Shown: positions 21,073-57,427, numbered from the stretch's first letter. The stretch is 64,000 nt of DNA from Hydrocarboniphaga effusa AP103 (GCF_000271305.1 NZ_AKGD01000001.1:1550001-1614000); one strand, 5' to 3'. The notes: generated by a model not told the origin, from the letters alone. Translations and numbers: made by a program.

Positions 21073-21252
21073 GGCCTCGCCATCGGCATCGAACTGAAAG
21101 ACGAGGACTACGCGGGCAAAATCGGTGCTACGTGCAGGAAAGGCGGCTTGCTGATCTCCGCCGAAGAGAACGTCCTCATGCTGATGCCCGCCCTCACCAT
21201 CGACCGCGCCACCTCCGAGCGCGGTCTCGACATCCTCGAAAGAGCCATTTAG
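21073..21252 (+). pseudogene. 3' remnant of a class III aminotransferase gene, cut by the IS
   Basis: The first codon after the IS opens GLAIGIELKDEDYAGKIG and runs 59 codons to a TAG, including GGLLISAEENVLMLMPALTID and ERGLDILERAI. This is the C-terminal end of a pyridoxal-phosphate class III (acetylornithine/GABA-type) aminotransferase, normally about 400-450 residues. The N-terminal 85% is missing; the IS right end sits exactly at the break, so the loss came from IS insertion plus deletion or rearrangement. Confidence 0.7.
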
Positions 21253-21269
21253 CGACGCGGCGCCGACCA

Positions 21270-21887
21270 TCAGGCGGCGAGCTTCTCCGCTTCTATGTTC
21301 AGCATCTCCATGTCGGGTACGGAGCCCAGCAGCGTGAGCGCGTGCTTCGCCAGCTCTCGCGGCACGTGCCCCACCAGATGGGAAAAGCGGCCGCCGTTGT
21401 CCGGAAATACGTCGAATATTCCGTATTCACCTTCGGAAGTGTGGATCGCGAACCACGCGGTGGTTTTCGGCTCTTCCTTCACCAGGTTCTCGGCATCGCG
21501 CAGGAAGCTTTCGACCTCCTGCTCATGACCCGCCTTGGCCTTGAAGGTGAGCAGCAGCCCCTTGGTGTCCTGCTGCGGGACGCTGCCCACAGGCAGCTTG
21601 CTGGCGAGCACGTCCAGTTTCTGGATGCGCGGCGTCCGCGAGAAGAGCTTTTCGCCGCGCGCTTGCAGCCCCTTTGCGACCTCACCGGCCAGGTGCGCAT
21701 CGCGGCTGGCGTCGTCCGGAAAGACATCGAAGATCCCGTACTCGCCCCGCCCAAACCGAACGGCGAACCACGCGGTGGTGCCGGCTTCCTTTTGCACGAG
21801 CGGTAGCGACGATCGGAGGAAATCCTCCACCGCCGACTCTTCGCCTGGCTTGGCTTCCAGGCGAACCAGCAGGCCACGGGTAATCAT
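21270..21887 (-). CDS. Tandem ABM-like (dimeric alpha-beta barrel) protein
   Basis: 205 residues that are two copies of one ~100-residue domain: TRGLLVRLEAKPGEESAVEDF with TTAWFAVRFGRGEYGIFDVFPDD, then TKGLLLTFKAKAGHEQEVESF with TTAWFAIHTSEGEYGIFDVFPDN. The fold is that of antibiotic biosynthesis monooxygenase-like proteins. It may be a small monooxygenase or a scavenger; no cofactor site can be assigned. A single-domain relative lies at 23590-23895. Confidence 0.7.
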   Translation of the reverse strand: MITRGLLVRLEAKPGEESAVEDFLRSSLPLVQKEAGTTAWFAVRFGRGEYGIFDVFPDDASRDAHLAGEVAKGLQARGEKLFSRTPRIQKLDVLASKLPVGSVPQQDTKGLLLTFKAKAGHEQEVESFLRDAENLVKEEPKTTAWFAIHTSEGEYGIFDVFPDNGGRFSHLVGHVPRELAKHALTLLGSVPDMEMLNIEAEKLAA

Positions 21888-22404
21888 CTCGCACCTCCGG
21901 GAAATTGAACGACAGGTCCCTCGCTGCCGGGTTACATAGACAGCGCAGGGGTGTTTCCGTTCCCTCGGGCGCGCGCCCGTCGCCCTCCGTCGTCACGCGT
22001 TTGTGGCGTTCGAACGTCTCTCCGAACTGGGCAAGTCGTCGCTCGTTCGGAACTCGTCGCCGCCGCGGATTGGATCATCGACATCGGCCGGCCGCCAGCC
22101 ACCGAGGCGGCCGCATCGTCACGGCTGCCCCCGGAAGAAGTCGCTCGTTCGCAAGAGAGCGGTCCGGCCATGTGTCGCCGCAATGTTGCAGTCAGGGCCG
22201 TGTCGACAGCACGCCCGTCCGCTCGCGTTGGATCGGCGACCTTCCAGAGTCGGACCGCCAATGGCGACTTTGGGCTGATCAGCGACTGTCGCTGAGGTGC
22301 CAGAAGCGGTCCTTCAAGTCGAGTTGCTCCGGCTGATCAGCCGCACTAAACCGCTAGTCGGCATTTAGGGTTTGACCTTCTGGAGCTGCAGGCCCGAGAC
22401 CTGG
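21888..22404. other. Intergenic stretch with no recognisable gene
   Basis: 517 bp without a conserved open frame; GC-rich frames here look random. It contains the first copy of a 26 bp direct repeat (22268-22293). Confidence 0.5.
22268..22293. repeat. 26 bp direct repeat, left copy
   Basis: CTTTGGGCTGATCAGCGACT followed by GTCGCT; an identical 26-mer occurs at 25052-25077 in the same orientation. The match continues imperfectly for about 10 more bases (GAGGTGCCAG versus TAAGTGTCAG). The two copies bracket the heme-binding, ABM and GlxA-like genes. Confidence 0.7.
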
Positions 22405-22632
22405 CTACTTTCTCCAATAGTTGTTTGCGGCTGCGATCGTGGCGAACTCGATGGCGACCGTTTGGCCGACCTGCAGTAAAGCCATCGCGTCGTTCGCATA
22501 GACATCGCGCAGCCTGGATCGCACCGCGTCATCCGGTTGCGTGGTTTTGATGACCAGCCTGGATATCGTCATGGCAAGCTGGCGACCCTCCTCTGGCGTG
22601 GCGGTGATCAACGAATTGCCAGGGATCAGCAT
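22405..22632 (-). CDS. Small hypothetical protein
   Basis: 75 residues, not recognised. The sequence (starting MLIPGNSLITATPEEGRQLAM and ending EFATIAAANNYWRK) is non-repetitive and of normal composition. The ribosome site is weak. It could be a fragment of a larger protein; no function is proposed. Confidence 0.35.
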   Translation of the reverse strand: MLIPGNSLITATPEEGRQLAMTISRLVIKTTQPDDAVRSRLRDVYANDAMALLQVGQTVAIEFATIAAANNYWRK

Positions 22633-22716
22633 GATGATTCTCGAGAGGATGGTTGAGCCTCAGATTTGTCCGACCGATTGCAAAGGGACACGCGATGGCC
22701 AGTCACTGCGGACCAA

Positions 22717-22750
22717 GGCCCCAGTGGCCTTGTACTGATCCACTGGGGCC
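22717..22750 (-). terminator. Hairpin downstream of the heme-binding protein gene
   Basis: GGCCCCAGTGG (22717-22727) and CCACTGGGGCC (22740-22750) form a perfect 11 bp stem with a 12-base loop, 42 bp after the stop of the minus-strand gene at 22792. It lacks a T-tract. Confidence 0.5.
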
Positions 22751-22791
22751 GAGCAACGACAATCTGAGAAATTTGAGAAGCGATCAGCGGG

Positions 22792-25517: not shown

Positions 25518-26162
25518 TCACTCCGCATCCGGTTGATTCGCCGGATGTGCATTCTGGAAAGCCTTCAGAATATTGCAGGCCTGCTCGATGCGCCGCAGGG
25601 TCGGATAGGCGTCCAGCGCCATCCCGAAGCGCTCCGCATTGAATAACTGGGGCACCAGGCAACAATCCGCCAAAGTCGGTCGATCGCCGAAGCAAAATGC
25701 ACCGCGGCGCGGCGATGTGGCCAGCCTGCTCTCGAGCGCTTGTAGCCCGAGATCGATCCAATGGCGTATCCAGGTCTGCTTCTGCTCCTCCGACAAGCCT
25801 ATCGGGCCGGTCAAGTACTTCAGGACGCGCAGATTGTTTAGCGGGTGAATATCGCAGGCGATGGCCAGCGCGATCTGCCGGACCCAGGCACGGTCGGCGG
25901 CGGAGGCCGGCAGCAACGGCGATTCCGGGTAACGCTCGTCGAGATATTCAATGATTGCCAATGACTGGGCGATACGTTCGCTACCGTCTTCCAGCACCGG
26001 TACTAGCGCCGCGGGGTTTGTAGCGCGGAACTTCGCCAGGAACTGCTCGCCCCCATCTCGCGTCAGATGCACGGGCAGATGTTCGGCCTCCAGCCCCTTG
26101 AGGTTAAGCGCGATGCGGACGCGGTAGGAGGCGGAACTGCGGTAGTAGGTGTGAAGTTTCAT
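25518..26162 (-). CDS. nagL: Maleylpyruvate isomerase (zeta-class glutathione transferase, NagL-like)
   Basis: 214 residues with the zeta-class signature YYRSSASYRVRIALNLKG (glutathione-activating Ser) and the C-terminal FGDRPTLADCCLVPQLFNAERF. It isomerises maleylpyruvate to fumarylpyruvate, or maleylacetoacetate in the homologous tyrosine route; the gentisate dioxygenase and fumarylpyruvate hydrolase in the same operon favour maleylpyruvate. Its start overlaps the MFS stop (ATGA). It is the last gene of the salicylate/gentisate operon. Confidence 0.87.
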   Translation of the reverse strand: MKLHTYYRSSASYRVRIALNLKGLEAEHLPVHLTRDGGEQFLAKFRATNPAALVPVLEDGSERIAQSLAIIEYLDERYPESPLLPASAADRAWVRQIALAIACDIHPLNNLRVLKYLTGPIGLSEEQKQTWIRHWIDLGLQALESRLATSPRRGAFCFGDRPTLADCCLVPQLFNAERFGMALDAYPTLRRIEQACNILKAFQNAHPANQPDAE

Positions 26163-27502
26163 GGAAGCAGGTTCCGGGACGAGGGGCCGGGAGCCGGGGC
26201 GCTCAGCCGCGCCAGGCCGAAGATCGCCGCTGCCGTGACCAGCGCCGGGATCGCGCAGGCCAGCACCAGTTGGTCTGGGGACCACCCCCAGCCCAGCAGA
26301 AGTCCACCCAGCAGCGGACCGGCGACCGAGCCTATTCGACCGATGCCCAGCGCCCAACCGACACCGGTAGCACGGATCGCGGTCGGATAGGCCTCGGCAG
26401 CCAAGGCGTTGAGGCAGAATTGCGCGCCGACTACGCCCGCGCCGGCCAAGAAGATCGCTGGCAGTGTCAGCCGCGGTAGCGCCGTCACGTGGGCCAGCGC
26501 CGCCACGATGGCGGCAACCAGCACGAAGGCAGCTCCCAGCGTCCGGTAGGGGCCATAGCGTCGCACCAAGGCAGCCAACAGGATGCCCCCGCCGATCCCG
26601 CCCAAGTTGAGCAACGACGAGGCCAGGATCGCCAAGCTTAGCGAGTAGCCGGTCAGCGTCAGCAGGGTCGGCAGCCAGTTGACCATGAAGTACATGACCA
26701 GTAGGTTCATGAAGAACGCGGTCCACAGCAGCAAGGTGACCTTCGTGCGCCGACCGCGGAACAACTCCCGTAGAGGAAATCCCGGATGCGGCGGTTCGCC
26801 GGCGATAACGCTTCGCAAATCATGACGTCTGCCCGGCTCCAGCCGTTCCAGCACGCGCTGGAGTTCACGGCTCCGCGCGCGCCGCAAAAGCAGGAAGCCC
26901 GGCGATTCCGGCAAGCGCCAGGCCAGCACCAACGCCAGCAGCAGGGGGACAGCGCCACCCAACACGAAAAGCGCCGGCCAGCCCAGGCTTGGAATCCACA
27001 GCGCGCTAAGCACGCCACCGAGGATCGAGCCCAGCGGGAAGCCGCAGAACATCAGCGTCACCAGCATGGTGCGCAGTCGCGCCGGAGCATACTCGGAGGT
27101 CAGCGCGACCAGGTTGGGCATCGCGCTGCCCAGGCCTAGCCCGGTCAGCAGGCGCAAGGCCAGCAAATGTCCGGGCGTCTGCGCCCAGGCTGTCGCCAGC
27201 GCGAACACACCGAACAGCAGAGTCGAAACCACGATCGTCCACTTGCGCCCCCAACGGTCGGCCAGCAGCCCGCCGATAAGCGCGCCGGCCATTAGACCCA
27301 GCAGCCCGGCACCGAACACCGGCCCCAGCGCCGACGGCGCCATGCCCCATTGCTCGGCAATCGCGGGAGCGACGTAGGCGATGACTTGGGTGTCGAAGCC
27401 GTCAAGCAAGGCCACCAGAGCGCACAGCGTGACAACCTCAAGCTGCAGGCGTCCCAGCGGGCGCGTGTCGATCAGCTCGGTGATCCGAAATACGCCGGTC
27501 AT
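26159..27502 (-). CDS. Aromatic acid:proton symporter, AAHS family MFS
   Basis: 447 residues with 12 predicted helices. The first helix has the AAHS motif LLDGFDTQVIAYVAP and the helix 2-3 loop GGLLADRWGRKW. AAHS carriers import benzoate- or gentisate-type acids; in this operon the likely substrate is salicylate or gentisate. It lies between the hydroxylase small subunit and the isomerase, with 7 bp and an overlap at its borders. Confidence 0.87.
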   Translation of the reverse strand: MTGVFRITELIDTRPLGRLQLEVVTLCALVALLDGFDTQVIAYVAPAIAEQWGMAPSALGPVFGAGLLGLMAGALIGGLLADRWGRKWTIVVSTLLFGVFALATAWAQTPGHLLALRLLTGLGLGSAMPNLVALTSEYAPARLRTMLVTLMFCGFPLGSILGGVLSALWIPSLGWPALFVLGGAVPLLLALVLAWRLPESPGFLLLRRARSRELQRVLERLEPGRRHDLRSVIAGEPPHPGFPLRELFRGRRTKVTLLLWTAFFMNLLVMYFMVNWLPTLLTLTGYSLSLAILASSLLNLGGIGGGILLAALVRRYGPYRTLGAAFVLVAAIVAALAHVTALPRLTLPAIFLAGAGVVGAQFCLNALAAEAYPTAIRATGVGWALGIGRIGSVAGPLLGGLLLGWGWSPDQLVLACAIPALVTAAAIFGLARLSAPAPGPSSRNLLP

Positions 27503-27509
27503 TAGGTTC

Positions 27510-27992
27510 CTAGATTGGGTAGATGATCGCGTTGGGGATCATTTCGCTGTCGTAAATGCAGAAGCGCGACGCGAACTTCAGCGCACCATCTACCCTCACC
27601 ACTTCGTCCAGGTAGCGGCCGACATTGAACACTGTGCTGATTTCCCCAAGCTTGGTACGGAACACCGCGTAGTTCGCCTCCAGAAACCAGCGGCCGCGGT
27701 CCACCGCCAGGACGCGCGGCAGGCTCACGACATGCCGTTGGTAGTAGGGGTCATGGAACAGGGTCTCGCGGATTCCGTAGACGCGGTCCTGCAGCATGCC
27801 CTTGCTATGGAAATGCAGCGTCGCCAGCGGCAGCCCACGCTCATGGTTTTCGCGCGGCTGGAGCTTGTAGACGCAATCCTCGGTGAAGAACTCGGGCCAG
27901 CGGTCCCAGTTGCCCGCATCGACGGTGGCCGTATACTCGGCGTAGAGCTGCAAAAGCTCGGTGTACACCAGCGGTTCAAGTGCCTGATTCAT
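27510..27992 (-). CDS. nagH: Salicylate 5-hydroxylase-like oxygenase, small (beta) subunit
   Basis: 160 residues of the ring-hydroxylating dioxygenase beta-subunit (NTF2-like) family: LLQLYAEYTATVDAGNWDRWPEFF followed by DCVYKLQPRENHERGLPLATL and RHVVSLPRVLA. It is structural and pairs with the alpha subunit directly upstream, whose stop overlaps its ATG. Naming follows the alpha subunit and the gentisate genes alongside. Confidence 0.82.
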   Translation of the reverse strand: MNQALEPLVYTELLQLYAEYTATVDAGNWDRWPEFFTEDCVYKLQPRENHERGLPLATLHFHSKGMLQDRVYGIRETLFHDPYYQRHVVSLPRVLAVDRGRWFLEANYAVFRTKLGEISTVFNVGRYLDEVVRVDGALKFASRFCIYDSEMIPNAIIYPI

Positions 27993-29251
27993 ACGCCCAT
28001 CACCCGCCGCCAGTATTGATACATGCCCCGAATCAGTGTCTCCGAGGCGATGTTGGTTGCCTCTTCGCTATCGTGCCCACCCATTTCCAGCAGGCATTGC
28101 TGGTCTGGCTTTTCCTGGAACCCCATCTGCGAGAACTCGATTACCTCGCCGTCGTCCGCGGAAACATAGCCGGACGGGCCGAACAGGTTGGCTTGCAGCA
28201 AGCGCCGCTGGATCATCTCGTCGCTGTCGTCTTCGAAGGCGAAGTGAGTCCACACGAAATCAAACACGCCAGGCCCGCGCGGTTGGATATGCCGCATTGA
28301 GAGACTATTGACCTGCTGCTGAATGATCAGGCTCGGAAACAGCGTCAACATCACCGCGGTCGGACCCTTCCACCATTCCTCTGGCACGATGTCGAGTTGG
28401 CGCGGGTCGCGCAGGCTCATGTCGGCTTTGTAGCTGGTCACGCCGGAGACGACGTCCCCGGCCGGCTTGCCGACGCTGCGCACGCCGATCATCGCGGCAT
28501 GGCGCTTGTGCGGGTCCATCTTCAGTGAGGTCTTGCTGTCGGCGCGCCACAAGCCGAAGGTCACGAACCAGCTATGCAACAGGCCCGGATGATAGGGATC
28601 CTTGATGTTTTCCTGCATCAGCTTCCAGTTTCCCGGAATTCGTTGCCGGTTGTAGCCCAGTATCTTCAGCTTGCGGCCGTCGAAAACGCGGTCGAAGTAG
28701 GACAGGATCGTCGGACCGAGGTAGTCCTCAAAGGACTCCAGCGAGTGGTCGAAGCTGGCAAACACCACGCCGCCGCGCACCGCGACCTTGAGCGAGGTCA
28801 GGCCGCGGCCCTCCATCTGGAAATCAGCCGGCATGCCGCCATTGAGCTGACCGTCCTGGCGGATACCTCGGCGATAGGGAATGCCGCGCAACTTGCCCTC
28901 AAGATCGTAGGCCCACTGATGGTAGGGGCAGACGAATTCCTTGCGGTTACCCTGGCGCTCGCGGCAGAACTGCGCGCCGCGATGGGCGCAGACGTTCTCC
29001 AGCACCCGCACGCCGCCGTCCTGGGTGCGCACCATGATGACCGAACGCTCTCCGACAACCGAGCGGCGGAAGTCGCCCGGGTGCGGGATCTCGGCCTCCA
29101 GGCCGATATAGCACCAGTGACCGGCGTAGTAGAAGCGATCGAGTTCGCGTCGATAGGTATCCGGATCCGTGTAGACCCAATAGGGCACGCGGTGCACCCC
29201 GTCGCCCGGCCAACCCGGCGACGAAGGGAGAGTGATGGGGGCGTCGTTCAT
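27989..29251 (-). CDS. nagG: Salicylate 5-hydroxylase-like oxygenase, large (alpha) subunit
   Basis: 420 residues. Rieske centre C88-x-H90...C108-x2-H111 (CAHRGAQFC and CPYHQW); mononuclear iron site D218, H221, H226 in NIKDPYHPGLLHSW. The opening (HRVPYWVYTDPDTY, IGLEAEIPHPGDF) and GGMPADF segment resemble NagG of the nag pathway, which hydroxylates salicylate to gentisate using a ferredoxin and the NagAa reductase. A reductase gene of that type heads this operon. Substrate is inferred from neighbours. Confidence 0.85.
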   Translation of the reverse strand: MNDAPITLPSSPGWPGDGVHRVPYWVYTDPDTYRRELDRFYYAGHWCYIGLEAEIPHPGDFRRSVVGERSVIMVRTQDGGVRVLENVCAHRGAQFCRERQGNRKEFVCPYHQWAYDLEGKLRGIPYRRGIRQDGQLNGGMPADFQMEGRGLTSLKVAVRGGVVFASFDHSLESFEDYLGPTILSYFDRVFDGRKLKILGYNRQRIPGNWKLMQENIKDPYHPGLLHSWFVTFGLWRADSKTSLKMDPHKRHAAMIGVRSVGKPAGDVVSGVTSYKADMSLRDPRQLDIVPEEWWKGPTAVMLTLFPSLIIQQQVNSLSMRHIQPRGPGVFDFVWTHFAFEDDSDEMIQRRLLQANLFGPSGYVSADDGEVIEFSQMGFQEKPDQQCLLEMGGHDSEEATNIASETLIRGMYQYWRRVMGV

Positions 29252-29269: not shown

Positions 29270-29965
29270 TCAGCCCGCCACGCGTACCTGGATTTCGCCT
29301 AGACCATCGATCCGTCCCACCATCAGGTCGCCGACGACCACCGCGCCGACGCCTTCCGGCGTGCCGGTCATGATCAGATCGCCCGGTTGCAGGGTCTCGA
29401 ACTGCGACAAGAAGGCGATGCACTCCGGCACGCTCCAGATGAGCTTGGCGATATCCGAAGCCTGGCGCGGCTGGCCATTGACAGCGACCGATATGGAAGC
29501 GGATTTCGGATGGCCCACGTCGGCGACCCGACGGATCGCGCCGATCGGCGCAGACTGCGAAAAAGATTTGCCGAACTCCCAGGGGCGCCCCTTGTCGCGA
29601 GCCTCCAGCTGCAGGTCACGGCGCGTCATGTCCAGGCCCACGGCGTAGCCGTAGACCAGCGACTCGGCCTCGTCCTGCGACACCGCCCTGCCCTGCCGGC
29701 CGATCGCCACCACCAGCTCGATCTCATGATGGAAGTTGCCGGTCATCGGCGGATACGGAATCTCCGCGGTCTGGCCGTTGACGGCCACGGTCGCGGAAGC
29801 GGGTTTCATGAAGAAGAACGGCGGCTCGCGCTCGTCCTGGCCCATTTCACGGGCATGGGCCGCGTAGTTGCGGCCGACGCAGAAAATGCGATTGACCGGA
29901 AACTGTTCGTCGCTGCCGGCCACCGGCAGCACATAGCCCGGCGCGGGCGAAAATGTGTACTTCAC
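29270..29965 (-). CDS. nagK: Fumarylpyruvate hydrolase (FAH family, NagK-like)
   Basis: 231 residues from a GTG at 29965 with GAGGAG upstream (a TTG one codon earlier is possible). FAH fold markers: IFCVGRNYAAHAREMG, the metal-binding MTGNFHHEIELVVAIG (E-x-E), and LQPGDLIMTGTPEGVGAV. It would split fumarylpyruvate into fumarate and pyruvate, the last step of the gentisate route. Tight operon with gentisate dioxygenase and the hydroxylase. Confidence 0.87.
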   Translation of the reverse strand: MKYTFSPAPGYVLPVAGSDEQFPVNRIFCVGRNYAAHAREMGQDEREPPFFFMKPASATVAVNGQTAEIPYPPMTGNFHHEIELVVAIGRQGRAVSQDEAESLVYGYAVGLDMTRRDLQLEARDKGRPWEFGKSFSQSAPIGAIRRVADVGHPKSASISVAVNGQPRQASDIAKLIWSVPECIAFLSQFETLQPGDLIMTGTPEGVGAVVVGDLMVGRIDGLGEIQVRVAG

Positions 29966-30014
29966 CAAACTCTCCTCGAGTACTGTGAATCGGGTTGTGA
30001 ACCTGGATGTGTAA

Positions 30015-31064
30015 TCAGGCCTTTTGCTCGCGCCACAGACCCAGCAGTCGCTGGACCGGGCGGTCGGAATAGCTGAACAGGATGGTTTCGCAGGTCACCT
30101 GGAGATGCAGTTCATTCCAGGAGGGCACGACGAACACGTCGTTCTCGCCAAAGCTCAGTTCGGTCTCGCCGATGCGCGCCGCACCACCGCCCTGCAGGCA
30201 GACAAAGATGCTGCTGTCGGTACTGCGGCAACCGCGGGTCTCGAAGCCGGCGGGCAGCAATTGAGCCGCCGCGCCGATCGTCGGCATCGGGGAACCTCCG
30301 GTGGCCGGGTTGACGTAGCGAAGCTTGTAACCGTGATGCGGATCGATGTCGCCTGATGCGATCCCACGCAGCGCCTCTCGCGTCCGGGCGTAGGGATAGA
30401 CGAAGACCTTGGTCGGATCCTGGCGCTGCGGCTCGAAATCCACCGGCAGCATGTTGTACCCGTAGCGCGCGAGTGCATCGCCCTCGCGCCGTATCACCGC
30501 TTGCTCGTCTTGCGCGCTCTTTTCAGCGAAGCCGGCGTCGAGCAGTTGCACGATCGGGATGTCGAGGCCATCGAGCCAGATCACCGGCTGTGTGCCGGAG
30601 TTTCCGTGATCGTGGAAGGTCCAAGCCGGGGTGATGATGAAATCACCCCGGCGCATCGTCGTGCGCTCGCCGTCCACCGCGGTGTAGGCGCCCTCGCCCT
30701 CCAGCACCAGGCGCAGCGCCGACTGCGTGTGGCGATGCGCTGGCGCGACTTCACCCGGCAGGATCAGCTGTAGGCCGGCATAAAGGCTCTGAGTGATGCG
30801 CGACTGCCCCCGCAATCCGGGATTCTCCAGCACCAGCACCCGGCGCTCGGCCTCGTGCGCACTGATCAACCCGCCGGCTTCAAGCAGATAGGCGCGGGCC
30901 TGGTTGTAGCGCCACAGTGCCGCCTGTGCCGGGCTTCTCGGCGTCGGCGGCACCAACGTCCCTAGCACTTCCCAGAGCGGCGTGAGGTGGTGGCGGTCGA
31001 TGCGTTCGTAGTACTCGCGGCGGGCATCGAGGCCAGCGGGGTCGATCATGGCAGCGGAGGTCAT
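30015..31064 (-). CDS. nagI: Gentisate 1,2-dioxygenase
   Basis: 349 residues from ATG 31064, two cupin domains. The first has the iron-binding PAHRHTQSALRLVLEGEGAYT and the later His in TPAWTFHDHGNSG; the second cupin near the C-terminus (IFVCLQGGGAARIGETELSF) has lost the histidines, as usual in the bicupin family. It cleaves gentisate to maleylpyruvate with Fe(II) and O2. The start lies 10 bp after the reductase stop. Confidence 0.9.
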   Translation of the reverse strand: MTSAAMIDPAGLDARREYYERIDRHHLTPLWEVLGTLVPPTPRSPAQAALWRYNQARAYLLEAGGLISAHEAERRVLVLENPGLRGQSRITQSLYAGLQLILPGEVAPAHRHTQSALRLVLEGEGAYTAVDGERTTMRRGDFIITPAWTFHDHGNSGTQPVIWLDGLDIPIVQLLDAGFAEKSAQDEQAVIRREGDALARYGYNMLPVDFEPQRQDPTKVFVYPYARTREALRGIASGDIDPHHGYKLRYVNPATGGSPMPTIGAAAQLLPAGFETRGCRSTDSSIFVCLQGGGAARIGETELSFGENDVFVVPSWNELHLQVTCETILFSYSDRPVQRLLGLWREQKA

Positions 31065-46856: not shown

Positions 46857-48932
46857 TCAGAAGAACTGGTAGCCCAGGGTGATAAAGACCTCGTCTTCCT
46901 TGTCCGATGAGCCCAGGGGGCCCTGGCGGAAACGGCCCAGCGGCTCGAAGCCGGTGAGACCGATGGGGCCGGCCTCCAGCAAGGGGCCGCCGGATGAGGC
47001 ATAGGCGGTAAACGGCGGATAGGGGTTGCAGTCGCGGCAGTCGTTGAACTTCTGCGCACCGTCGCCGAACTTGACGTTGGCACCGATCGAGATCTTGAAG
47101 TTCTGCGATAGCAGGTAGTCGACCGAAGGCTGCATCGCGTAGGCACCAGCCTTCCAGTCGCGCGCCATCACCAGCTTGGGCTGCAAGCGGTCTTGCAGGT
47201 ACCAGGTCTGGATGAAGAGCGTGCCGGTCCAGTTGTCCTTCCAGTCCGGCATGCCGATCTGGCCAAGCTGCGCCTGCTCCAGTTCGTGATCGAGCAGGTG
47301 CTGGCCGAAAATCTGCAGCGAGAACAGGAAGGTTCGGTCGGCGTTCAGGAAGGGAATGAACGTCAGGCGATCAAGCCCGACGACGTAGCGCGCGACGCGC
47401 GACTTGCTGTACAGCTCGGGGCGCAGGGTATTGGGAAACTCTTCGCCCCAAGTCATCGCCGCTTCGATGCGTGCCACTGTCTTGATCGGCGCGATGGTGA
47501 AGTCGAGCGAACCGCCGAGCAGCTTGACGCGCGGGAAGGCGATGTCGAAGGCGATCAGGTAAGGCACCGGGCGTGGCACGGTGTTGTACTGGCCCACCCC
47601 CGGCAGCAGTTCCGGCAGTTGCAGGTCCACCGGCAGCAGCAGGTTGGCGAAGGGACTGATCGCTGGCGGTCCCCCGGAGCCACCATGCAGGCTGGGCAGC
47701 TGCGAACGGTAGAGCAGGCCATTGAGCGAGAAGCTGACGTCGCCGAGCACGCCCTCGAACTTGGTGCCGATCTGCGTGTTGGACAGCGTCCAGTTCGGCA
47801 GCTGCACCTCGCGGATGCCGACCTGGTTGGGGCCGAAGTCCGTAGTCATGGCCGTACCCGGCTGCCCGAGGATTGGCGGCACCAGGGCAAAGTTGGACAC
47901 CGTACCGCCGTTATCCCAGAGATTCTTCATGCCGCGGAAGAAGCAGCCGGCATCCAGGATGACGTTGGCGGTGCCGCATTGGCCCAGGCTGTTGGGGCGG
48001 AACTTGTCGAAGTTCCATACCACCTGCCAGTTGAGATCCTGCAGGGCCCCCACCGGGCCCATTCGGTACTCTGCCGTGGCGATCCACATCGGGATGCGAA
48101 TGTCCTGCAATTCGTCATAGATGTTGTTGCGCGAGTAGTCGACCGGGTTGATGACGTCGAGCACGCGAAACAGATCGGTACGGCCCCAGATGACCTGCTG
48201 CTTGCCTACGCGGAAGAACAGTTCCTGCTCCTCGTCGCTGAGCGGCGATGAGAACAGCAGGGAACTGTCGAAGTAGGCTTCGCGCAGCCAGTCGAGGCGG
48301 TCGGCATCAGCGAATTCCGGGAAGCGCAGATCGTTCTCGCTGCCGTCCATGTAGCCGCGGAGGCAGCCGCGGGAATCCACGTCGCAGGGCCGCACCGGAA
48401 CGCCGAATGCGACACCGCCGCCCGGCCGGTGCAGGGGCTCGCCCAGCACGATCATGCCGTCGTTGGGATTGTTGGCCAGGTTGAAACCGAATTGGCCGAG
48501 GCCCGCGCCCGGCACGCCGTTGAACACCCCGTACTGCAGGTTATTGCCGCCGAAGGCGCCGCGGCCATGCGCCACGCAGCCGGCCGGGATCAAGCCGGAG
48601 GTGTCCTCCAGGCAGATCGGGCCACCGGCATTGCGGCCGTACTCCTTCGAATTGAGGTCATAAACACCGTCGTAGGTGCCACGCAGCTTCAAGGTCAAGG
48701 AGTTGCCGGTGAAGGCACCGAGATCGTCGAACTCGCGATCTGCCTCGAGGCGCAGGGTATTGCGCTCCTTCGACAGGCCGACATCCTGGCGGACGCGGGT
48801 ATCGTTCTCCAGGAAGCCATTGATGCGCCATGCGCCCAATTCCCCGGCCTGTACCGTCTTGCCATGCAGGGCCAAGCCCCATGCGCACAATCCCATCACG
48901 AGGCTTCCCAATGCCTTTCCGGCAATCCTCAT
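46857..48932 (-). CDS. DUF1302 family outer-membrane beta-barrel-like protein
   Basis: 691 residues from ATG 48932; signal region LVMGLCAWGLALHGKTVQAGE. Typical DUF1302: WRINGFLENDTRVRQ near the start, FFRVGKQQVIWGRTDLFRVLDVINPVDYS in the middle, and a terminal aromatic residue (LGYQFF) as in outer-membrane barrels. Two cysteine-containing insertions (GPICLEDTSGLIPAGC, RPCDVDSRGC) are visible. Pairs with DUF1329 37 bp downstream. Confidence 0.87.
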   Translation of the reverse strand: MRIAGKALGSLVMGLCAWGLALHGKTVQAGELGAWRINGFLENDTRVRQDVGLSKERNTLRLEADREFDDLGAFTGNSLTLKLRGTYDGVYDLNSKEYGRNAGGPICLEDTSGLIPAGCVAHGRGAFGGNNLQYGVFNGVPGAGLGQFGFNLANNPNDGMIVLGEPLHRPGGGVAFGVPVRPCDVDSRGCLRGYMDGSENDLRFPEFADADRLDWLREAYFDSSLLFSSPLSDEEQELFFRVGKQQVIWGRTDLFRVLDVINPVDYSRNNIYDELQDIRIPMWIATAEYRMGPVGALQDLNWQVVWNFDKFRPNSLGQCGTANVILDAGCFFRGMKNLWDNGGTVSNFALVPPILGQPGTAMTTDFGPNQVGIREVQLPNWTLSNTQIGTKFEGVLGDVSFSLNGLLYRSQLPSLHGGSGGPPAISPFANLLLPVDLQLPELLPGVGQYNTVPRPVPYLIAFDIAFPRVKLLGGSLDFTIAPIKTVARIEAAMTWGEEFPNTLRPELYSKSRVARYVVGLDRLTFIPFLNADRTFLFSLQIFGQHLLDHELEQAQLGQIGMPDWKDNWTGTLFIQTWYLQDRLQPKLVMARDWKAGAYAMQPSVDYLLSQNFKISIGANVKFGDGAQKFNDCRDCNPYPPFTAYASSGGPLLEAGPIGLTGFEPLGRFRQGPLGSSDKEDEVFITLGYQFF

Positions 48933-48960
48933 CTGATTCACTCCTCTCTCAGGTCTCTGG

Positions 48961-51393
48961 TTATTCGGCGGCTGACTGGCGCTCGCAGCCGGGCGTGGCG
49001 AAAGCCGGGGACGATGCCGCCTTGGTTGCACCCGCGGGCGCGGCGGACGAGGCCGTCACGAAGCCGGGGCGGAAGGCGAGAATCCAGGCGGGTACGACGA
49101 CCATGGCGCCAATGGCGTTGAGCACCAGCATCACAATCAGCAGCAGTGCGGCCGAGGACTGGAAGCGCAGGTCTGAGAAGAACACCCACATGACCACACC
49201 AGCGACGAGGGTCGTTGCGGTGAACATCACCGCAAGGCCAGTGGTGCTGATGGCATGGGCGACGGCATCGTGCAGCGCTCGTCCCTTCTCTATCTCGTCG
49301 CGAACGCGGTCCATCACATAGATCGCATAGTCGATGCCCACGCCCATTCCCACCGCGACCACCGGGATGATGTTGACGTTTATGCCTACATTGGCGATGC
49401 CCAGATAGCCGTAGCTGAGCACCGTGGCGAAGATCATCGGCAGGATCATCAGCCAGCCGGCGTGCGCCGAGTTGTAGTAGGTCGCCACCATCAGGAACGA
49501 TGCGATCAACACGAAAGCCGTGACCATGACGCTGTCATGGAAGTTGGCCTGATTGATAGCGGCGTTGACGCCGACGACACCGGCCGCCGGCTCGATCGTG
49601 AAGCCCTCGATACCCTTGCCGTAAAGCTCGGCGCCCTGCTTCGCGCGCTGCACCGCCGCCTCGATCGTCTTCGCCTGCAGGTCCGGCAGGTAGAAGCTCA
49701 GGTTTGCCAGCGTCTCCTCGGGGTTGACGTACTCGCGCAGGGCTCCGGGTACCGGACTGGAGTACTCGAAGGCATACATCAGGCTGCCCACGCCGCGTGC
49801 GTCTCCGGGTATTTGCAGCCAGCGCGGATCGCCCTCGTGGGTCAGGCGATTGACCTGCTTCACCAGGTCAGGGAGGCCCTTGGCGGCGCCCACCACCGGC
49901 TCCTCAAGCATGTAGCGCTCGAATTTCTCCATGGCTGCCATCGCCTCGGGGCTGCGCAAGCCCTCGCGCTCGCTGGAGCGGGCCACCACGAACAGTTCCT
50001 CACTGCCGGGGAAGCTCTCCGAGATCAGGTGCGCCGAGCGGTTGTAGTCGTGGTCACGCTTGAGAATCGGCGAGCCAGGCTCGGACTCTCCGAACTGCAC
50101 CTGGGACGCGCCCCATGCACCCAGCCCGAGCAGCACCAGGGCGCCCAACAACACCGCACGGCCGACGCCGGCGTTGGAGACCGGCTCCACCATCCGGTGC
50201 AGCGTCGCCGAAGTCTGGTCACGGCTGTTCTCAGTGCGCCGGGGCTGCGGTAGCACGGTCAGCGCCAGCGGCACCATGAAGTGCACTGTGAAGATCACCG
50301 AGAAGGCCCAGAAGCCGGCAAAGGCGCCGAGATGCTTGTTGAACGGCGCCGCGCCGATCGCCACCGCGGCGATACCGATGGCGTCGACGATGATCGCCAG
50401 GGAGCCCGGGCGGAACAGCGCGTCCAATGCATTGCGCGCAGCCTGACGACCGTTCTGGGTGCGCGCCAGTTCGTAGTAGTAGCGCTCGACCAACTGCACC
50501 CCGTGCGAGGTCGCACGGGCGGCAATCAGAAAAGGGATCGGCATCGACAGCGGATCGAGATGAATGCCGACCAGATTCATGAAGCCCAGGCCCCAGGCCG
50601 AGGACAGGAGAATGCCCAGCAATGGCAACACGATGCCGTAGAGGCGGCGGAAGTATCCCGCCAGCAACAGGATTATCAAGGCCGTGGTGTAGAGCAGAAT
50701 CTCGACGATCTGCGGCAGATAGGTGTAGACCCAGCCGGTCAGCACCGGGTTTCCCACCGCGTAGATGCGCAGGCCGTTGCGTGCTTCCGCCTCGCGGATC
50801 TTCTGCAGCCCGGCGAAGGCTTCGAGCAGTTCGTCGGAGGTCGAACTGTTCATCTGTGCCCGGATGATCGCCACCTTGCCATCGGCCGACACCAGGCGCC
50901 CGCTGATGCGTGGATCCGCCTGCACCTGCAACTGCAAGGTCTTCAGTTGCGCCGGCGTCAGCGCCTCGGCATTCGGGTCGTAGTAGGGATCGGAGCGGAT
51001 CGTGCCGGCTTCATTGATGTAGACCCGGCGCGTCGTGCGATGCGTGATGCTGGCCACGAGGTTGTGATTGACCCCCGGCAGCATGTCGATGCCCTGCGTA
51101 ATGCGTTCGATCGCGGCGAGTGCTTCGTTGCTGAAGATCGTGCCCTGCCCGACCTCCACCGCAACCGTGATGACGTTGGCCCCGCCAAAAATCCCGCGCA
51201 CCTCGTTGTGCAGCTGGATATAGGAATGCTGCTGCGGCAGAAGGTCCTCGAAATCCGACGCCATTTTCATGCCGGGGATCTGGCTGGCGAAGAACGCCGA
51301 CAGGCCGAGAATCAGCGCGAGCACGAAGCGCGGGCTGGCAAAAATCCACTCTTCGCCCCGCTGCAGCGCGGCGACTATCTTTTGGCGAATCAA
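48961..51393 (-). CDS. RND/MMPL-family transporter
   Basis: About 810 residues from a TTG at 51393 that has GGAGGG upstream and overlaps the YCF48-like stop (TTGA). Layout: one N-terminal helix (FVLALILGLSAFFASQIPG), large extracytoplasmic loop, helix block with a GIHLDPLSMPIPFLIAARATSHGVQLVERYYYE sterol-sensing/RND signature, second loop, and a second block with VVAVGMGVGIDYAIYVMDRVRDE. Members of this group move lipids or hydrophobic molecules using the proton gradient. Confidence 0.87.
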   Translation of the reverse strand: MIRQKIVAALQRGEEWIFASPRFVLALILGLSAFFASQIPGMKMASDFEDLLPQQHSYIQLHNEVRGIFGGANVITVAVEVGQGTIFSNEALAAIERITQGIDMLPGVNHNLVASITHRTTRRVYINEAGTIRSDPYYDPNAEALTPAQLKTLQLQVQADPRISGRLVSADGKVAIIRAQMNSSTSDELLEAFAGLQKIREAEARNGLRIYAVGNPVLTGWVYTYLPQIVEILLYTTALIILLLAGYFRRLYGIVLPLLGILLSSAWGLGFMNLVGIHLDPLSMPIPFLIAARATSHGVQLVERYYYELARTQNGRQAARNALDALFRPGSLAIIVDAIGIAAVAIGAAPFNKHLGAFAGFWAFSVIFTVHFMVPLALTVLPQPRRTENSRDQTSATLHRMVEPVSNAGVGRAVLLGALVLLGLGAWGASQVQFGESEPGSPILKRDHDYNRSAHLISESFPGSEELFVVARSSEREGLRSPEAMAAMEKFERYMLEEPVVGAAKGLPDLVKQVNRLTHEGDPRWLQIPGDARGVGSLMYAFEYSSPVPGALREYVNPEETLANLSFYLPDLQAKTIEAAVQRAKQGAELYGKGIEGFTIEPAAGVVGVNAAINQANFHDSVMVTAFVLIASFLMVATYYNSAHAGWLMILPMIFATVLSYGYLGIANVGINVNIIPVVAVGMGVGIDYAIYVMDRVRDEIEKGRALHDAVAHAISTTGLAVMFTATTLVAGVVMWVFFSDLRFQSSAALLLIVMLVLNAIGAMVVVPAWILAFRPGFVTASSAAPAGATKAASSPAFATPGCERQSAAE

Positions 51394-52361
51394 TGGATGC
51401 CCTCCGATTCGATATTCACCATCGCCGGCGTGCTGGCGCCGGAACCGCCGACCACGATCAGGGACGAGCGGCCCGGGAGGGCGACGCCGCCACGGAGGTA
51501 ACCGCTGCCGGAGGTAGCGCTCGGCAAAACCCGCCATTTGCCGTTGGATCCGCGCTGCTGGATCAAACCGAGTTCGCCGACAGCAAATAGGCGGCCACCG
51601 GCACCCGAAAGAAACCCGTACATCGGCACACCGGCGGCATTGGTTTCCGGCGTCCAGCTCTGTCCGCCATCGCGGGTGCCGAGGATGATCCCGCCGCGAC
51701 CCGTCAGCCAGCCGGTATCGGCGTCGGTGAACCAGACGTCGAAGGCGTAGAAATCGTCCGGGATGGGGGGCAGCATCTCCCAGCTGGCGCCGCCATCGCT
51801 GCTGCGCGCAACGATGCCAAACTCACCGGCGACAACCGCATTGCCGGCGTCGATGAATCGGATGGTGGTGAGGATCGCGTCTTGGCCAAACTCGGTCTTC
51901 TGCCAGCTCACTCCGCGATCGCCGCTATGCAGAACAGTGGAATAGGTCCCAACGACCCAGAATCCGCCGTCCGGAGCACACGCCAGGGCCATAGGGGTGA
52001 AGTCCTCCGGCATCGAGCCCGCGGCAAGGCGCCAGCCGGTGCCTTGTGCATTCCCAGTCCAGACACGGCGATGGAAGTCGAGTGCGACAAAGCTTCTGTC
52101 CGCGCAGGCCGCGACGTCGATCAGCGCCGCTCGGCTCTCCAGCTTTTGCGCTTCCCAGGTCTTGCCGGAATCGGTCGAACGGGACAGTAGGTCATTGCCG
52201 ACAGCCACGATCGCCTGGCCATTCGACGCAATTTTTTGCAGGTCGTCAGCGACGTGCGTGGCGCCATGGGCGATCGGCGAAAAGGCGGCAGCCACAGCAA
52301 AAATGGCCAGGATCGCGCTGGGCAATCCAAGATGGAGCGCCAGTGGCGCGGGACGGCTCAT
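51390..52361 (-). CDS. YCF48/BNR-repeat beta-propeller protein, exported
   Basis: 323 residues with a signal peptide (PSAILAIFAVAAAFSPIAHGA) and repeated propeller blades: RSTDSGKTWEAQ, HSGDRGVSWQK, RSSDGGASWEM, TRDGGQSWTPE (Asp-box S/T-x-D-x-G-x-x-W). YCF48-like proteins accompany RND/MMPL genes in several lipid or hydrocarbon loci and are thought to assist assembly. First gene of the ~14 kb upper-pathway operon; strong GGAGGAG ribosome site. Confidence 0.85.
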   Translation of the reverse strand: MSRPAPLALHLGLPSAILAIFAVAAAFSPIAHGATHVADDLQKIASNGQAIVAVGNDLLSRSTDSGKTWEAQKLESRAALIDVAACADRSFVALDFHRRVWTGNAQGTGWRLAAGSMPEDFTPMALACAPDGGFWVVGTYSTVLHSGDRGVSWQKTEFGQDAILTTIRFIDAGNAVVAGEFGIVARSSDGGASWEMLPPIPDDFYAFDVWFTDADTGWLTGRGGIILGTRDGGQSWTPETNAAGVPMYGFLSGAGGRLFAVGELGLIQQRGSNGKWRVLPSATSGSGYLRGGVALPGRSSLIVVGGSGASTPAMVNIESEGIH

Positions 52362-52828
52362 TGCCGAGTCTCCTCCGAGTAGTAATAAACTGCGGAGGGA
52401 GAATCAGTGAAGCAGCGATATAAGTGAACCCGATTGCGGGAATGATCGCCATCACTGGGATGAATAAACTGGTGCTATCCCTCGGTCGACAAAAAGGGAA
52501 CCGCGTTTCCTGCAGAAAAAGCGGATTTTGGTAGCGGAAATCGCCGCGCGGCCGCTCGCTCTTGGCACCAGCGGGGAGCAACCTCGATCTGCAACGTAAC
52601 GCGGATGAGCGTGCAATTTGCCGGGGCGGAGTGGCGCTCTATCCCGGGCCTGCTTTGTGGGAACCTACTGGATGCCCCGGCGGCCTCCGAGCGGGCAGTC
52701 GCGTGTTCAGCTGCTCGCTGCGACAGCAAGCATCATTACCGCATGGTCTTTGTCGCTTCTGTGCTTGAGCCCTGCCAAGGCGTCGCGGCTTCGCAAGGGT
52801 TCCGACCTGCGGAAGTAAGAAAGGCCCG
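52362..52828. other. Upstream region of the upper-pathway operon, non-coding
   Basis: 467 bp with no convincing gene. It should contain the promoter of the long minus-strand operon beginning at 52361. AATAAACTG occurs twice (about 52385 and 52463), and AT-rich TTATAT-like sequence lies near 52418. I could not fix a -35/-10 pair or a clear GAATG-type dyad. Confidence 0.4.
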
Positions 52829-55501: not shown

Positions 55502-55542
55502 TTTTTCCCCCGAAGGTTGTGAGCCGCATGTTTCGGAAACAG

Positions 55543-55573
55543 CGCGCAGGGCGGGTTATGCCCGCCCTGCGCG
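55543..55573 (-). terminator. Hairpin between the heme-binding and uvrA-like genes
   Basis: CGCGCAGGGCGGG-TTATG-CCCGCCCTGCGCG: perfect 13 bp stem with a 5-base loop, 8 bp after the heme-binding gene stop on the minus strand and 42 bp before the uvrA-like start. No long T-tract follows. Confidence 0.65.
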
Positions 55574-55580
55574 GGCTGAT

Positions 55581-56315
55581 TTACTTCTTTCTCACCACCG
55601 ACAGCTTCACCTTCTCCTCGGTTCCCCCGCAGAGTGGATGCTTGAAGCCGCTCGACTTCTCGGTCTGGCCGAGGAAGATGATGTTGTCGTCCTTCGCGGG
55701 GCTGACACCACCCGGCATGTAGTCGAGCGCGAACGCTTGGCGCGTCTTCCAGGCGATGTTGTGGTCCGCGCACGAAGAATCGCCGCTTACGCCCAGTGCT
55801 CCCACGCGATCGCCTTTCGCGTTGTATAGCGCCAGTCCGCCGCCGAACACGTTCACGCCGCCGATCCGCTTGCCCGTCATGGGGTCCTTCGCGGTGCCGA
55901 AATACGCGGCGTTGCCGGCGTAGGCCACGCCGGTGTCCACCGGGTTGGAGTGCTGCAAGCCGTAGAGGCTGCCGCCCGGCTGCGTGGCCGAGTAGAGATT
56001 GGCGGTGGAAAGCGCGAGGCCCGGAAGGCTGAAGGCATTCGCGGTATTCGCCTTCTGCGCGGAGATCACGCGGCTACCGAGCCACTGGTCGCCGTACTCC
56101 GCGCCGGTGAAGGCCACGGCACACACGGTGCCGTCGGTGCTGACAACCGTGCCCCACATGTCGAGGTTGAAGCCGCCATTGGATTCCTTGCGGGCGGCGG
56201 TGAGCGTTTCCTTGAGCTGCTGCCAGCCAGGAAGGCGGTCGCACGCGCCCGCGTGAGCCGCGAGCGGCAGAAGGAGAGAGGAGAACATCAGGGTTAGAAC
56301 AGGGAGCTTCGTCAT
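55581..56315 (-). CDS. HbpS/GlcG-family heme-binding protein, exported (paralog 2)
   Basis: 244 residues: signal peptide ending PLAAHAGACD, then the same DUF336 fold as 22792-23556, with SNGGFNLDMWGTVVSTDGTVCAVAFTG, GSRVISAQKANTANAFSLPG, GGVNVFGGGLALYNAKGDRVGALGVSGDSSCADHNIAW. The two paralogs share most motifs but differ throughout, so duplication is not recent. Likely a monocistronic unit ending at the hairpin. Confidence 0.8.
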   Translation of the reverse strand: MTKLPVLTLMFSSLLLPLAAHAGACDRLPGWQQLKETLTAARKESNGGFNLDMWGTVVSTDGTVCAVAFTGAEYGDQWLGSRVISAQKANTANAFSLPGLALSTANLYSATQPGGSLYGLQHSNPVDTGVAYAGNAAYFGTAKDPMTGKRIGGVNVFGGGLALYNAKGDRVGALGVSGDSSCADHNIAWKTRQAFALDYMPGGVSPAKDDNIIFLGQTEKSSGFKHPLCGGTEEKVKLSVVRKK

Positions 56316-56393
56316 GATTGAAACCTCTGGGTTGAGATGAACCCGATGGCGGGCGATCCGCCTGGGGTCCGGGTGGTGGTTGGGAAAAACCAG

Positions 56394-57276
56394 CTACGGA
56401 TTCGCATGCCGAGCCCTCTGGAGAGCCGGCATCTTCTGCCCATCCCAGTCGCGGTCAACCGCGACCTGGGCCTGTGCCCGGTGCTTTTCAAGCGCCTCGA
56501 AGTCCAGATCGGCGATCGCCCACAACTGCTCGCCGCGGGCCATGGCGAGAATGCCGCCTTCCGGAAAGCCATGATCCATCGGTGCATAGATCGTGGCCTC
56601 GCCGGTGTTCGTGTCCAGCGCAGGGCTCCAGCCGGCGGTTCCAGTCGTCACCGCCTGCGCGACGAACATCCGGTTCTCCAGGGCGCGTGCCATGCAGCCC
56701 ACGCGGACCCGTGTCGCGCCCGCCGCGGTGTCCGTGCAACTCGGGACCAGCAGCAGGCGGGCGCCGGCCTCGCGCTGGGCGCGTACGGGCAAGGGGAATT
56801 CGCTGTCGTAGCAGACGGAGATGCCGGCACGCACACCGTTGAGATCGAACACCTTGAGGTCGTCGCCGCCCTCGATGATGCCGGCCGCCCTCTCGAACCC
56901 CGTCAGCTGCAACTTGTCCTGATAACCGCGCGTGCCGTCTGGCGCAAACCACCAGGCCCGATTGCGATAGCGCTGCGGGGCCACCTCGGTGAGGAACGTG
57001 CCGGCCTGGAGGGTCATGCGCAGCTCGCGCGCCAGATCAGCGTACAGCGTCAACCACGCCGGCTGCAGAGGCTGCAGCGCGGCCAGCGAGGCGCTCAGGT
57101 CGCGGCTGATCTCGGGGGGCAAACGTCGCCGCCAGCTCGAGGGCAAGGTACTCGGGCAGCACCGCCAGTTCGGCGCCGGCGCGACTCGCTTCCTCCAAGA
57201 TCAGCCGCTGGCGTGCGGCGAATTCCCCGAAGTCCGCGGGTTTGCCCACGGAGTACTTGGCCACGGCAAGCTTCAT
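56394..57276 (-). pseudogene. Carbon-nitrogen hydrolase (nitrilase superfamily), frameshifted at a C6 tract
   Basis: The N-terminal part starts at ATG 57276 (MKLAVAKYSVGKPADF, with catalytic Glu in VLPEYLALELAATF). At 57113-57118 a run of six C on this strand breaks the frame; the next part (PEISRDLSASLAALQPLQPAW...) continues in another frame to 56394, with catalytic Lys in YQDKLQLTGFE and Cys in GISVCYDSEF. With five C the frame would read straight through (about 293 residues). It could be a real mutation, a phase-variable tract or a read error. The insertion sequence lies 46 bp upstream and has probably removed the native promoter. Confidence 0.75.
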
Positions 57277-57427
57277 CGGCGGGCCTCCAGGGGCCGCAGC
57301 CACATGGTCAGCGTCTGCCCGGTGTTGGCGCTCACCGAGAACTGACCATCACTGCTCGTTGAAAATTGACCAGGGATGGAGGCCGGCGGCGGATGCTGCC
57401 GGCGTGGTTTGATTCTATCGCTGGTCG

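Follow-up and report, generated by a model that had tools for sequence, protein, structure and literature searches.

A 64,000-nt stretch of the genome of Hydrocarboniphaga effusa AP103 (hereafter the window; plain coordinates are positions in it, and G000 is the same genome) carries what we judge, with a probability of roughly 0.8, to be a naphthalene catabolic module of the phn/nag kind whose core has spread recently, which is bounded by insertion sequences (ISs), and which lies in a tRNA-Met island. The IS-bounded interior (21073-57322) measures ~36 kb, and the core shared with relatives 27 kb (window 25.5-52.5 kb). The upper-pathway set occupies the minus strand between 52.4 and 38.4 kb, and the ferredoxin, aldehyde dehydrogenase, and first reductase genes lie on the plus strand at 35.4-38.4 kb. 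The lower-pathway set is again on the minus strand, starting with the second reductase at 32.1 kb and ending with the isomerase at 25.5 kb. One 27-kb block would hold a complete naphthalene-to-central-metabolism module with its own regulator sites and exporter set, and the nesting of core, IS pair, and tRNA island, together with relatives that are without one layer or another, would constitute a stepwise record of the mobilisation of a catabolic block.

An earlier note on this DNA had proposed genes for every step from a naphthalene-like substrate to fumarate and pyruvate, in upper and lower operons around one NahR-like regulator. Searches of Pfam, NCBIfam, and PDB families, together with protein identities to reference clusters, confirmed a candidate gene for each reaction leading from naphthalene via salicylate and gentisate to fumarate and pyruvate, and they recovered the two ferredoxin reductases, the isomerase, and the operon layout around a NahR/NagR-like regulator as claimed (Table 1). 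The naphthalene-to-gentisate part is well supported by the PDB sequence matches of the oxygenase (E 3e-168), the NahE-like aldolase (E 3e-149), and the salicylate 5-hydroxylase (E 1e-213). The reference loci were those of Paraburkholderia BN5 pBN2, Sphingobium JS3065 pNIN2, XWY-1 pXWY, pDTG1, and Novosphingobium (N.) pentaromativorans US6-1. To the earlier reading we add a LigAB-type two-subunit ring cleavage, AmeABCD-like genes, a CoA-transferase/lyase pair, and the ends of the island.

Gene content is read directly from the DNA, and from it we infer enzyme activities as follows. The naphthalene dioxygenase would dihydroxylate naphthalene and the SDR-family dehydrogenase would oxidise the diol, after which a PhnC-type LigAB extradiol dioxygenase would cut the ring. 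The 2-hydroxychromene-2-carboxylate isomerase and the NahE-like enzyme would then yield salicylaldehyde and pyruvate, the aldehyde dehydrogenase would form salicylate, and NagGH would convert it to gentisate, which gentisate dioxygenase, a MaiA-type isomerase, and an FAH hydrolase would take to fumarate and pyruvate. The components expected of a nag-type cluster are present by family and identity, namely a naphthalene dioxygenase-type oxygenase, NagGH, gentisate dioxygenase, maleylpyruvate isomerase, and fumarylpyruvate hydrolase.

Among PDB proteins, the oxygenase alpha subunit matches naphthalene 1,2-dioxygenase best (564 bits), followed by the 3-nitrotoluene (543) and nitrobenzene (533) oxygenases, and lower down by the 2ckf/2gbw type (477) and the cinnamate (329) and biphenyl (295) enzymes. 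It keeps the naphthalene dioxygenase ligands of the iron (H235, H240, D389) and of the Rieske centre (C108, H110, C128, H131), and its F379 aligns with the F352 position of that enzyme. Four of the five pocket residues of NdoB (N201, F202, V260, W316, F352) are kept, V260 being replaced by S; we take the compared ligand and pocket residues to have these roles. The NahE-like aldolase keeps Lys183 and Tyr155, which presumably act as they do in NahE.

Ring cleavage is predicted to be the work of a PhnC-type LigAB enzyme and not of NahC. The LigB-like protein carries the DHY, DHG, and GxSH motifs, which the available portion of one report gives as motifs of the type-II 1,2-dihydroxynaphthalene dioxygenases McbB and PhnC (PMC5141477). 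The Pfam LigA match of the small subunit is sub-threshold (16.3 bits vs a cut-off of 25.3, with a longer frame scanned). No VOC-family match, as expected of a NahC-type 1,2-dihydroxynaphthalene dioxygenase, was found among the window open reading frames (ORFs) scanned. The ring-cleavage gene being LigAB-like and a VOC match being absent, we therefore class the cluster as a phn variant.

A single NagR-like regulator likely acts on all units; most likely it senses salicylate and acts at three conserved boxes, through which induction is predicted. The box pattern ATTCA-N6-TGAW occurs four times in the window vs 0.35 expected, and none of 100 shuffles reached at least four, an optimistic figure given that the pattern was partly picked from the window's own promoters. 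Three of the four boxes fall in three promoter regions, the fourth within the lyase gene. All three promoter boxes occur in every one of the seven core-bearing genomes, this one included, and the relatives are 84-99% identical in these regions. The independent check comes from the reference loci: the box occurs exactly once in each of the fetched BN5, JS3065, and XWY-1 stretches, always in the regulator/reductase promoter, and the first 35 kb of pDTG1 has one box 0.1 kb before ndoR and another inside ndoB. What we take to be the NahR consensus, allowing up to 3 mismatches, gave 20 matches vs 12 expected, a weak signal alone, and the text searched of PMC3180648 yielded no box sequence.

The core is shared widely within the family Nevskiaceae. 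A search of 58 family genomes with the alpha subunit found seven copies of at least 94% identity (own included), three of 83-84%, and one of 63%. Six other genomes were compared over the core, and all 23 tested genes have the same order in all six, so that chance is excluded. These relatives align over 27-32 kb at 90.8-98.0% nucleotide identity, whereas their rpoB identity is 79.3-84.1% in five of six (rpoB was not found in G049, a metagenome-assembled genome [MAG]). This difference points to recent transfer, and on a plain reading of the alignments the 27-kb core would have moved recently and horizontally between genera of one family. The seven core-bearing genomes carry five genus labels; relatives were matched to Solimonas sp. 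SE-A11, Solimonas MAG BWSM_106, Solimonas aquatica DSM 25927, and Sinimarinibacterium flocculans DSM 104150. The core is carried by S. aquatica DSM 25927, and both S. aquatica and Sinimarinibacterium flocculans are Nevskiaceae.

The block is framed by two IS21-family copies that the earlier note had called identical. They do stand in the same orientation at both ends, as direct repeats, but 2 of the 2518 compared bases differ. A third copy in the same genome (G000:C1:2225679-2228198) has both istA and istB open, and istB is also open in the 93%-identical IS of the relative G001.

The inner junctions cut genes or gene remnants that can be followed in the relative G049. At the left, the interior opens with what remains of the C-terminal end of a class-III aminotransferase. 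G049 carries the N-terminal portion of a gene of this kind left of the junction (profile positions 7-306, 213.6 bits, in another frame and with no IS), and a search of the present genome for that portion gave nothing beyond short matches to IS ends. At the right, IS copy 2 interrupts a CN_hydrolase-family gene, which runs to 478 aa in G049 (profile 2-251). Homology to G049 starts exactly at 21073 and stops at 57323, and the G049 DNA runs on past both points without an IS, as does that of G050 past the right inner edge. The DNA outside the IS copies has no match to the fetched G049 or G050 stretches, and G046 runs on past the outer right edge, after IS copy 2, without an IS. Since the inner flanks match G049 up to the IS edge and the outer flanks do not, the IS-bounded block is read as relocated, that is, as a Solimonas-like block that appears to have been placed in a different island.

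The ends of that island split a tRNA gene. Joining the island flanks restores a complete tRNA-Met(cat) by ARAGORN, and in G005 and G006 the right-hand flank recurs with a piece matching this tRNA no more than 0.4 kb away. The island measures 45.9 kb between the attachment cores and has a further complete tRNA-Met inside. No integrase was found among the island ORFs scanned with Pfam, a scan in which some small ORFs were not included. The related island of G046, which lies on two contigs whose link is inferred, has 5.2 kb beside its left end that encode an integrase and TraD. The island described here lacks those 5.2 kb, and neither G046 piece matches the 239 bp that separate the left core from IS copy 1. 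The IS-bounded block apparently entered a mobilisable island in place of a G046-type integrase segment, and with that segment missing, the island probably cannot leave by itself. The proposed course is that IS21-family copies came to flank a Solimonas-like version of the module and that the resulting block would then have entered the tRNA-Met island.

Table 1. Features of the catabolic block and its surroundings, in order of position.
Feature	Position	Strand	Evidence
tRNA-Met 3' part with left attachment core GATTATGAGTC (18306-18316)	18270..18316	-	
IS21-family copy 1	18556..21072	-	istA 19458-20963; istB 18661-19311 over two frames
Class-III aminotransferase C-terminal remnant	21073..21252	+	Aminotran_3 profile 342-403/403, 23.4 bits vs cut-off 30.5
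NagL/MaiA-type maleylpyruvate isomerase	25518..26159	-	TIGR01262 297 bits vs cut-off 171; 49% to MaiA of JS3065 nag cluster
MFS aromatic-acid transporter, PcaK/AAHS-like	26159..27502	-	TIGR00895 378 bits, below cut-off 419
NagH-like salicylate 5-hydroxylase small subunit	27510..27992	-	56-60% to three NagH-type proteins
NagG-like salicylate 5-hydroxylase large subunit	27989..29251	-	PDB 7c8z E 1e-213; 68-70% to three NagG-type proteins
NagK-like fumarylpyruvate hydrolase, FAH family	29270..29968	-	51-52% to FAH proteins of two nag clusters
Gentisate 1,2-dioxygenase (inferred start)	30015..31064, ORF to 31202	-	TIGR02272 506 bits vs 442; 35-36% to JS3065, BN5 proteins
Ferredoxin reductase 2, NagAa-like (inferred start)	31075..32058	-	Fer2, FAD_binding_6, NAD_binding_1; 45-47% to NagAa/NdoR-type reductases
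NagR-type box, divergent promoter of reductase 2 (lower operon)/CoA-transferase	32141..32155	-	
Class III (CaiB/BaiF) CoA-transferase (inferred start)	32214..33422, ORF from 32154	+	Pfam CoA_transf_3 423 bits
HMG-CoA-lyase-like lyase	33419..34360	+	PRK05692 341 bits vs 246; PDB 6nds E 2e-86; GGLGGCPYA stretch
NagR/NahR-like LysR regulator	34350..35294	-	58% to NagR of JS3065, 52% to NahR of pDTG1
NagR-type box between regulator and ferredoxin genes	35293..35307	+	
Rieske ferredoxin (inferred start)	35408..35728, ORF from 35267	+	46% to NagAb
Aldehyde dehydrogenase, presumed salicylaldehyde dehydrogenase	35763..37289	+	31-32% to nah/nag-cluster enzymes
Ferredoxin reductase 1	37361..38383	+	29-30% to NagAa/NdoR
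Second FAH-family hydrolase, no obvious pathway step	38444..39310	-	
GstA-type glutathione transferase	39326..39946	-	NF007831 235 bits vs 198; PDB 2dsa, 2gdr best; 52% to GstA of JS3065, pDTG1
cis-Dihydrodiol dehydrogenase, NahB-like	39970..40800	-	47% to pDTG1 enzyme
Ring-hydroxylating dioxygenase beta subunit	40816..41388	-	37% to NdoC
Naphthalene dioxygenase-type alpha subunit	41405..42856	-	PDB 1eg9 E 3e-168; 54% to NdoB of pDTG1
2-Hydroxychromene-2-carboxylate isomerase, NahD-like	42769..43392	-	PDB 2imd E 1e-53
LigB-like extradiol dioxygenase, PhnCb/McbB type	43400..44227	-	52% to XWY-1 carbaryl-locus enzyme, 58% to US6-1 one
LigA-like small subunit, PhnCa type	44252..44512	-	34% / 41% to small ORFs before LigB in XWY-1 / US6-1
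trans-o-Hydroxybenzylidenepyruvate hydratase-aldolase, NahE-like	44514..45509	-	PDB 6dao E 3e-149; 65% to pDTG1 enzyme
DUF1329, AmeB-like periplasmic protein	45506..47146	-	
DUF1302, AmeA-like outer-membrane protein	46857..49031	-	
HAE3-type RND/MMPL exporter, AmeD-like	48961..51537	-	TIGR00921 150 bits, below cut-off 352
YCF48-like, AmeC-like periplasmic protein	51390..52361	-	
NagR-type box upstream of upper operon	52451..52465	-	
CN_hydrolase-family gene cut by IS copy 2	56394..57322	-	ORF 250 aa, to 57146; profile 64-251/256
IS21-family copy 2	57323..59839	-	Pfam run on this copy; istB 57428-58078 over two frames
MobA/MobL relaxase of island	60088..61458	+	94-95% nucleotide identity to two G046 contigs
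Partner attachment core	G000:C1:1614212-1614222		just outside window

Several observations weigh against this account of pathway and movement. Three enzymes have only remote counterparts among the nah/nag proteins and are the weakest assignments: the aldehyde dehydrogenase at 31-32% identity, reductase 1 at 29-30%, and gentisate dioxygenase at 35-36%. In addition, the nahR stretch of pDTG1 (35-70 kb) has no box match, and the sequence does not settle naphthalene vs phenanthrene. Phenanthrene or another larger or methylated polycyclic aromatic hydrocarbon (PAH) could be the main natural substrate, with naphthalene secondary: in the sections of the sources at hand, PhnC-type cleavage belongs to clusters reported for naphthalene and phenanthrene alike, in RP007 and FM-2 (PMC12472010, PMC5141477), and both the change of V260 to S relative to NdoB and the presence of an extra FAH hydrolase and a CoA-transferase/lyase pair would suit a larger or methylated substrate. 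We nevertheless consider such a substrate order unlikely, as the alpha subunit is closest to naphthalene dioxygenase by the margin over the 2ckf/2gbw type given above and no further 1-hydroxy-2-naphthoate genes were seen among the cassette ORFs scanned, no dedicated search having been run. Other objections concern how the block came to its place. In each of the two window copies istA is open and istB is split between two frames, which makes their own activity doubtful, and no target-site duplication was found at the window copies or at the outer ends, there being a 2-base agreement at copy 1 only. These two points limit the earlier claim of a composite-transposon-like cassette in an island, of which the structure stands, in the inner edges and the tRNA-Met-splitting ends. 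They also fit a course without composite transposition, in which separate IS insertions were followed by homologous recombination or adjacent deletion between copies, as do the 239 bp left of copy 1 that are unmatched in G046, the missing 5.2-kb integrase segment, and the third IS copy, which offers recombination. This alternative falls just short of an even chance, considering that agreement with the donor-like context reaches to the IS edge on both inner sides and is lost on both outer ones, as in a moved unit, and that the third copy with its open istB could have supplied IstB. A composite-transposon-like structure is supported by the junctions, and transfer as an IS-bounded unit is the putative mode of movement.

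The comparison with G049 has its own blemishes. Left of the core, G049 departs from collinearity twice, being shorter than the window by ~0.2 kb near 23.1 kb and longer by ~1.6 kb near 25.06 kb, and its own aminotransferase gene is spread over two reading frames. The assembly, too, counts on the negative side: it has a long exact repeat and 8.28% contamination, and a join error at an IS is conceivable. A contaminating Solimonas contig might have been joined to host DNA at the near-identical IS copies, and a cassette 97-98% identical to two Solimonas genomes and a long exact duplication in the same contig would agree with that. We regard such artificial junctions as improbable: the duplication is ~1.1 Mb away and could by itself push up the contamination value, an assembly of 5.2 Mb in four contigs would point to long reads, and G001 and G050 likewise have related IS21 copies next to the cassette. 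Genuine junctions around an IS-bounded naphthalene module in a tRNA-Met island remain our preferred reading.

The pathway kind is known; as far as we have seen, its combination of genes, host group, exporter set, CoA-transferase/lyase pair, and nested mobile context are new. Among the closest arrangements is the phn/nag cluster of Burkholderia sp. FM-2 (as in RP007 and C3), which, in the part of its description available, has phnAc/phnAd, phnCa (LigA) and phnCb (LigB), nagG/nagH, nagI, and maiA (PMC12472010). That cluster is described with dntR, phnR, and phnS, whereas here there is one NagR-like regulator in another host order, and AmeABCD-like export genes and the CoA-transferase/lyase pair are added (PMC12472010, same part). 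The nag clusters of BN5 pBN2 and JS3065 pNIN2 likewise combine a naphthalene dioxygenase and salicylate 5-hydroxylase with a NagR-type regulator, gentisate genes, and a regulator-promoter box, but they have an annotated nahC, one reductase, and a regulator gene on one strand with all the catabolic genes on the other. Pseudomonas C5pp, with its mcb genes and TnC5ppSal, and pXWY share the PhnC-type 1,2-dihydroxynaphthalene dioxygenase, NagGH, and IS21 around catabolic genes (excerpted text of PMC5141477); the pXWY stretch has no annotated naphthalene dioxygenase, unlike the present cassette. IS21 copies around such genes are already known from TnC5ppSal (PMC5141477, PMC6723655, each as far as available), which comprises the middle pathway only, between inverted IS21 copies, whereas here direct copies enclose the whole pathway (PMC5141477). 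For the Nevskiaceae, aromatic-degradation potential has been reported (PMC9535955, available part), and no naphthalene cluster in the family is described among the matches listed in the open-access literature.

All four AmeABCD-type components lie together at the start of the upper operon. In Castellaniella defragrans, the accessible account of AmeABCD describes a DUF1302, a DUF1329, a COG4447, and an HAE3 RND protein as a set (PMC6394551). The same four-component set thus stands beside hydrocarbon catabolic genes in both organisms, but it is associated with monoterpenes there, whereas here it has the order C-D-A-B and leads a naphthalene operon (PMC6394551, same account). The AmeABCD-like set probably limits the hydrocarbon load in membranes, by export or membrane protection.

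The CoA-transferase/lyase pair lies inside the core in seven of seven genomes, where it shares the boxed divergent promoter with the gentisate operon, and no step from naphthalene to fumarate requires it. Among named families, the best matches are to succinate--glutarate CoA-transferase, with a score below cut-off, and to HMG-CoA lyase, with one over cut-off. A methylgentisate branch has long been known biochemically, and for comparison we take the citramalate CoA-transferase/citramalyl-CoA lyase pair to be Sct/Rcl of Chloroflexus. We offer, as a tentative and rather doubtful extension, that the cassette also mineralises methylnaphthalenes, with the pair ending methylgentisate breakdown via citramalyl-CoA: cleavage of methylgentisate would lead to citraconate or mesaconate, a host enzyme would hydrate this to citramalate, and the CoA-transferase and HMGL-type lyase would split citramalate into acetyl-CoA and pyruvate. 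An HMG-type role or passenger status of the pair is equally open. No LeuC over the TIGR00170 cut-off was found in this genome, which speaks against a local citraconate hydratase of the LeuC kind. If the extension is true, the pair supplies genes for the methylgentisate branch, and in any case it makes the gene basis of methylgentisate breakdown directly testable; among the matches listed in the open-access literature, no paper on genes of a gentisate-citramalate branch was found.

Genomic context outside the cassette was surveyed from both sides. Of 369 genomes searched for the context of the CoA-transferase/lyase pair, 78 had a match at E 1e-60 or better, and eight neighbourhoods were compared (the seven best outside this genome and one lower; one of the contigs is 5.8 kb). 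Against the reference panel, these eight showed no gentisate dioxygenase, naphthalene oxygenase, or LigB genes; one has a MaiA-like gene (50%) ~7 kb away, and there is one distant LeuC-like match (29%). Conversely, the lyase occurs in four of 33 LigB-bearing loci, all of them copies of this cassette, and one other locus has a distant CoA-transferase (28-29%). The single independent association of pair and LigB is in N. pentaromativorans US6-1, where a distant pair (46-47% and 37%) lies between leuCD-type hydratase genes and NahE/LigAB-like genes. The run on US6-1 pLA3 (L095 record 526949-539776) reads leuC-leuD-CoA-transferase-lyase-aldolase-small ORF-LigB and is a candidate for an aromatic pathway with an integrated citraconate/citramalate ending.

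The second FAH hydrolase (38444-39310) is 94-100% identical in all six relatives. The glutathione transferase at 39326-39946 was considered as a maleylpyruvate isomerase and ruled out, being of the GstA type by NF007831 and by its PDB matches 2dsa and 2gdr; it is akin to NagJ/BphK. More distant upper-pathway clusters occur in the same family (G010:C11, G025:C324, G028:C1, and G031:C1; oxygenase 63-84%), and their fetched stretches have no close NagG/NagH or gentisate dioxygenase, with distant NagG/NagH matches of 40% and 35% in G031. Between the core and IS copy 2, a UvrA-like protein (52829-55501, 890 aa, TIGR00630 871 bits vs 730) is 98-99% identical in G049 and G050.

Related IS21 elements lie ~0.15 kb from the isomerase end of the cassette in G001 (G001:C1:641842-644360, 93%) and ~3.3 kb from it in G050 (G050:C21:125-2244, 82%), which suggests repeated involvement of the IS21 family at the cassette. 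Both window copies share a change in istB, which is open in the third copy and in the G001 IS. At its start, the contig appears to have a unit of ~203.5 kb twice in tandem without differences (G000:C1:1-203532 and 203533-407064; 100% identity in each of three stretches that were compared), which is probably an assembly artefact and possibly the cause of the 8.28% contamination figure. To the right of the island, a MbnB/TglH/ChrH-family gene (G000:C1:1614758-1615600, PF05114 303 bits) possibly marks a modification locus for ribosomally synthesized and post-translationally modified peptides flanking the island.

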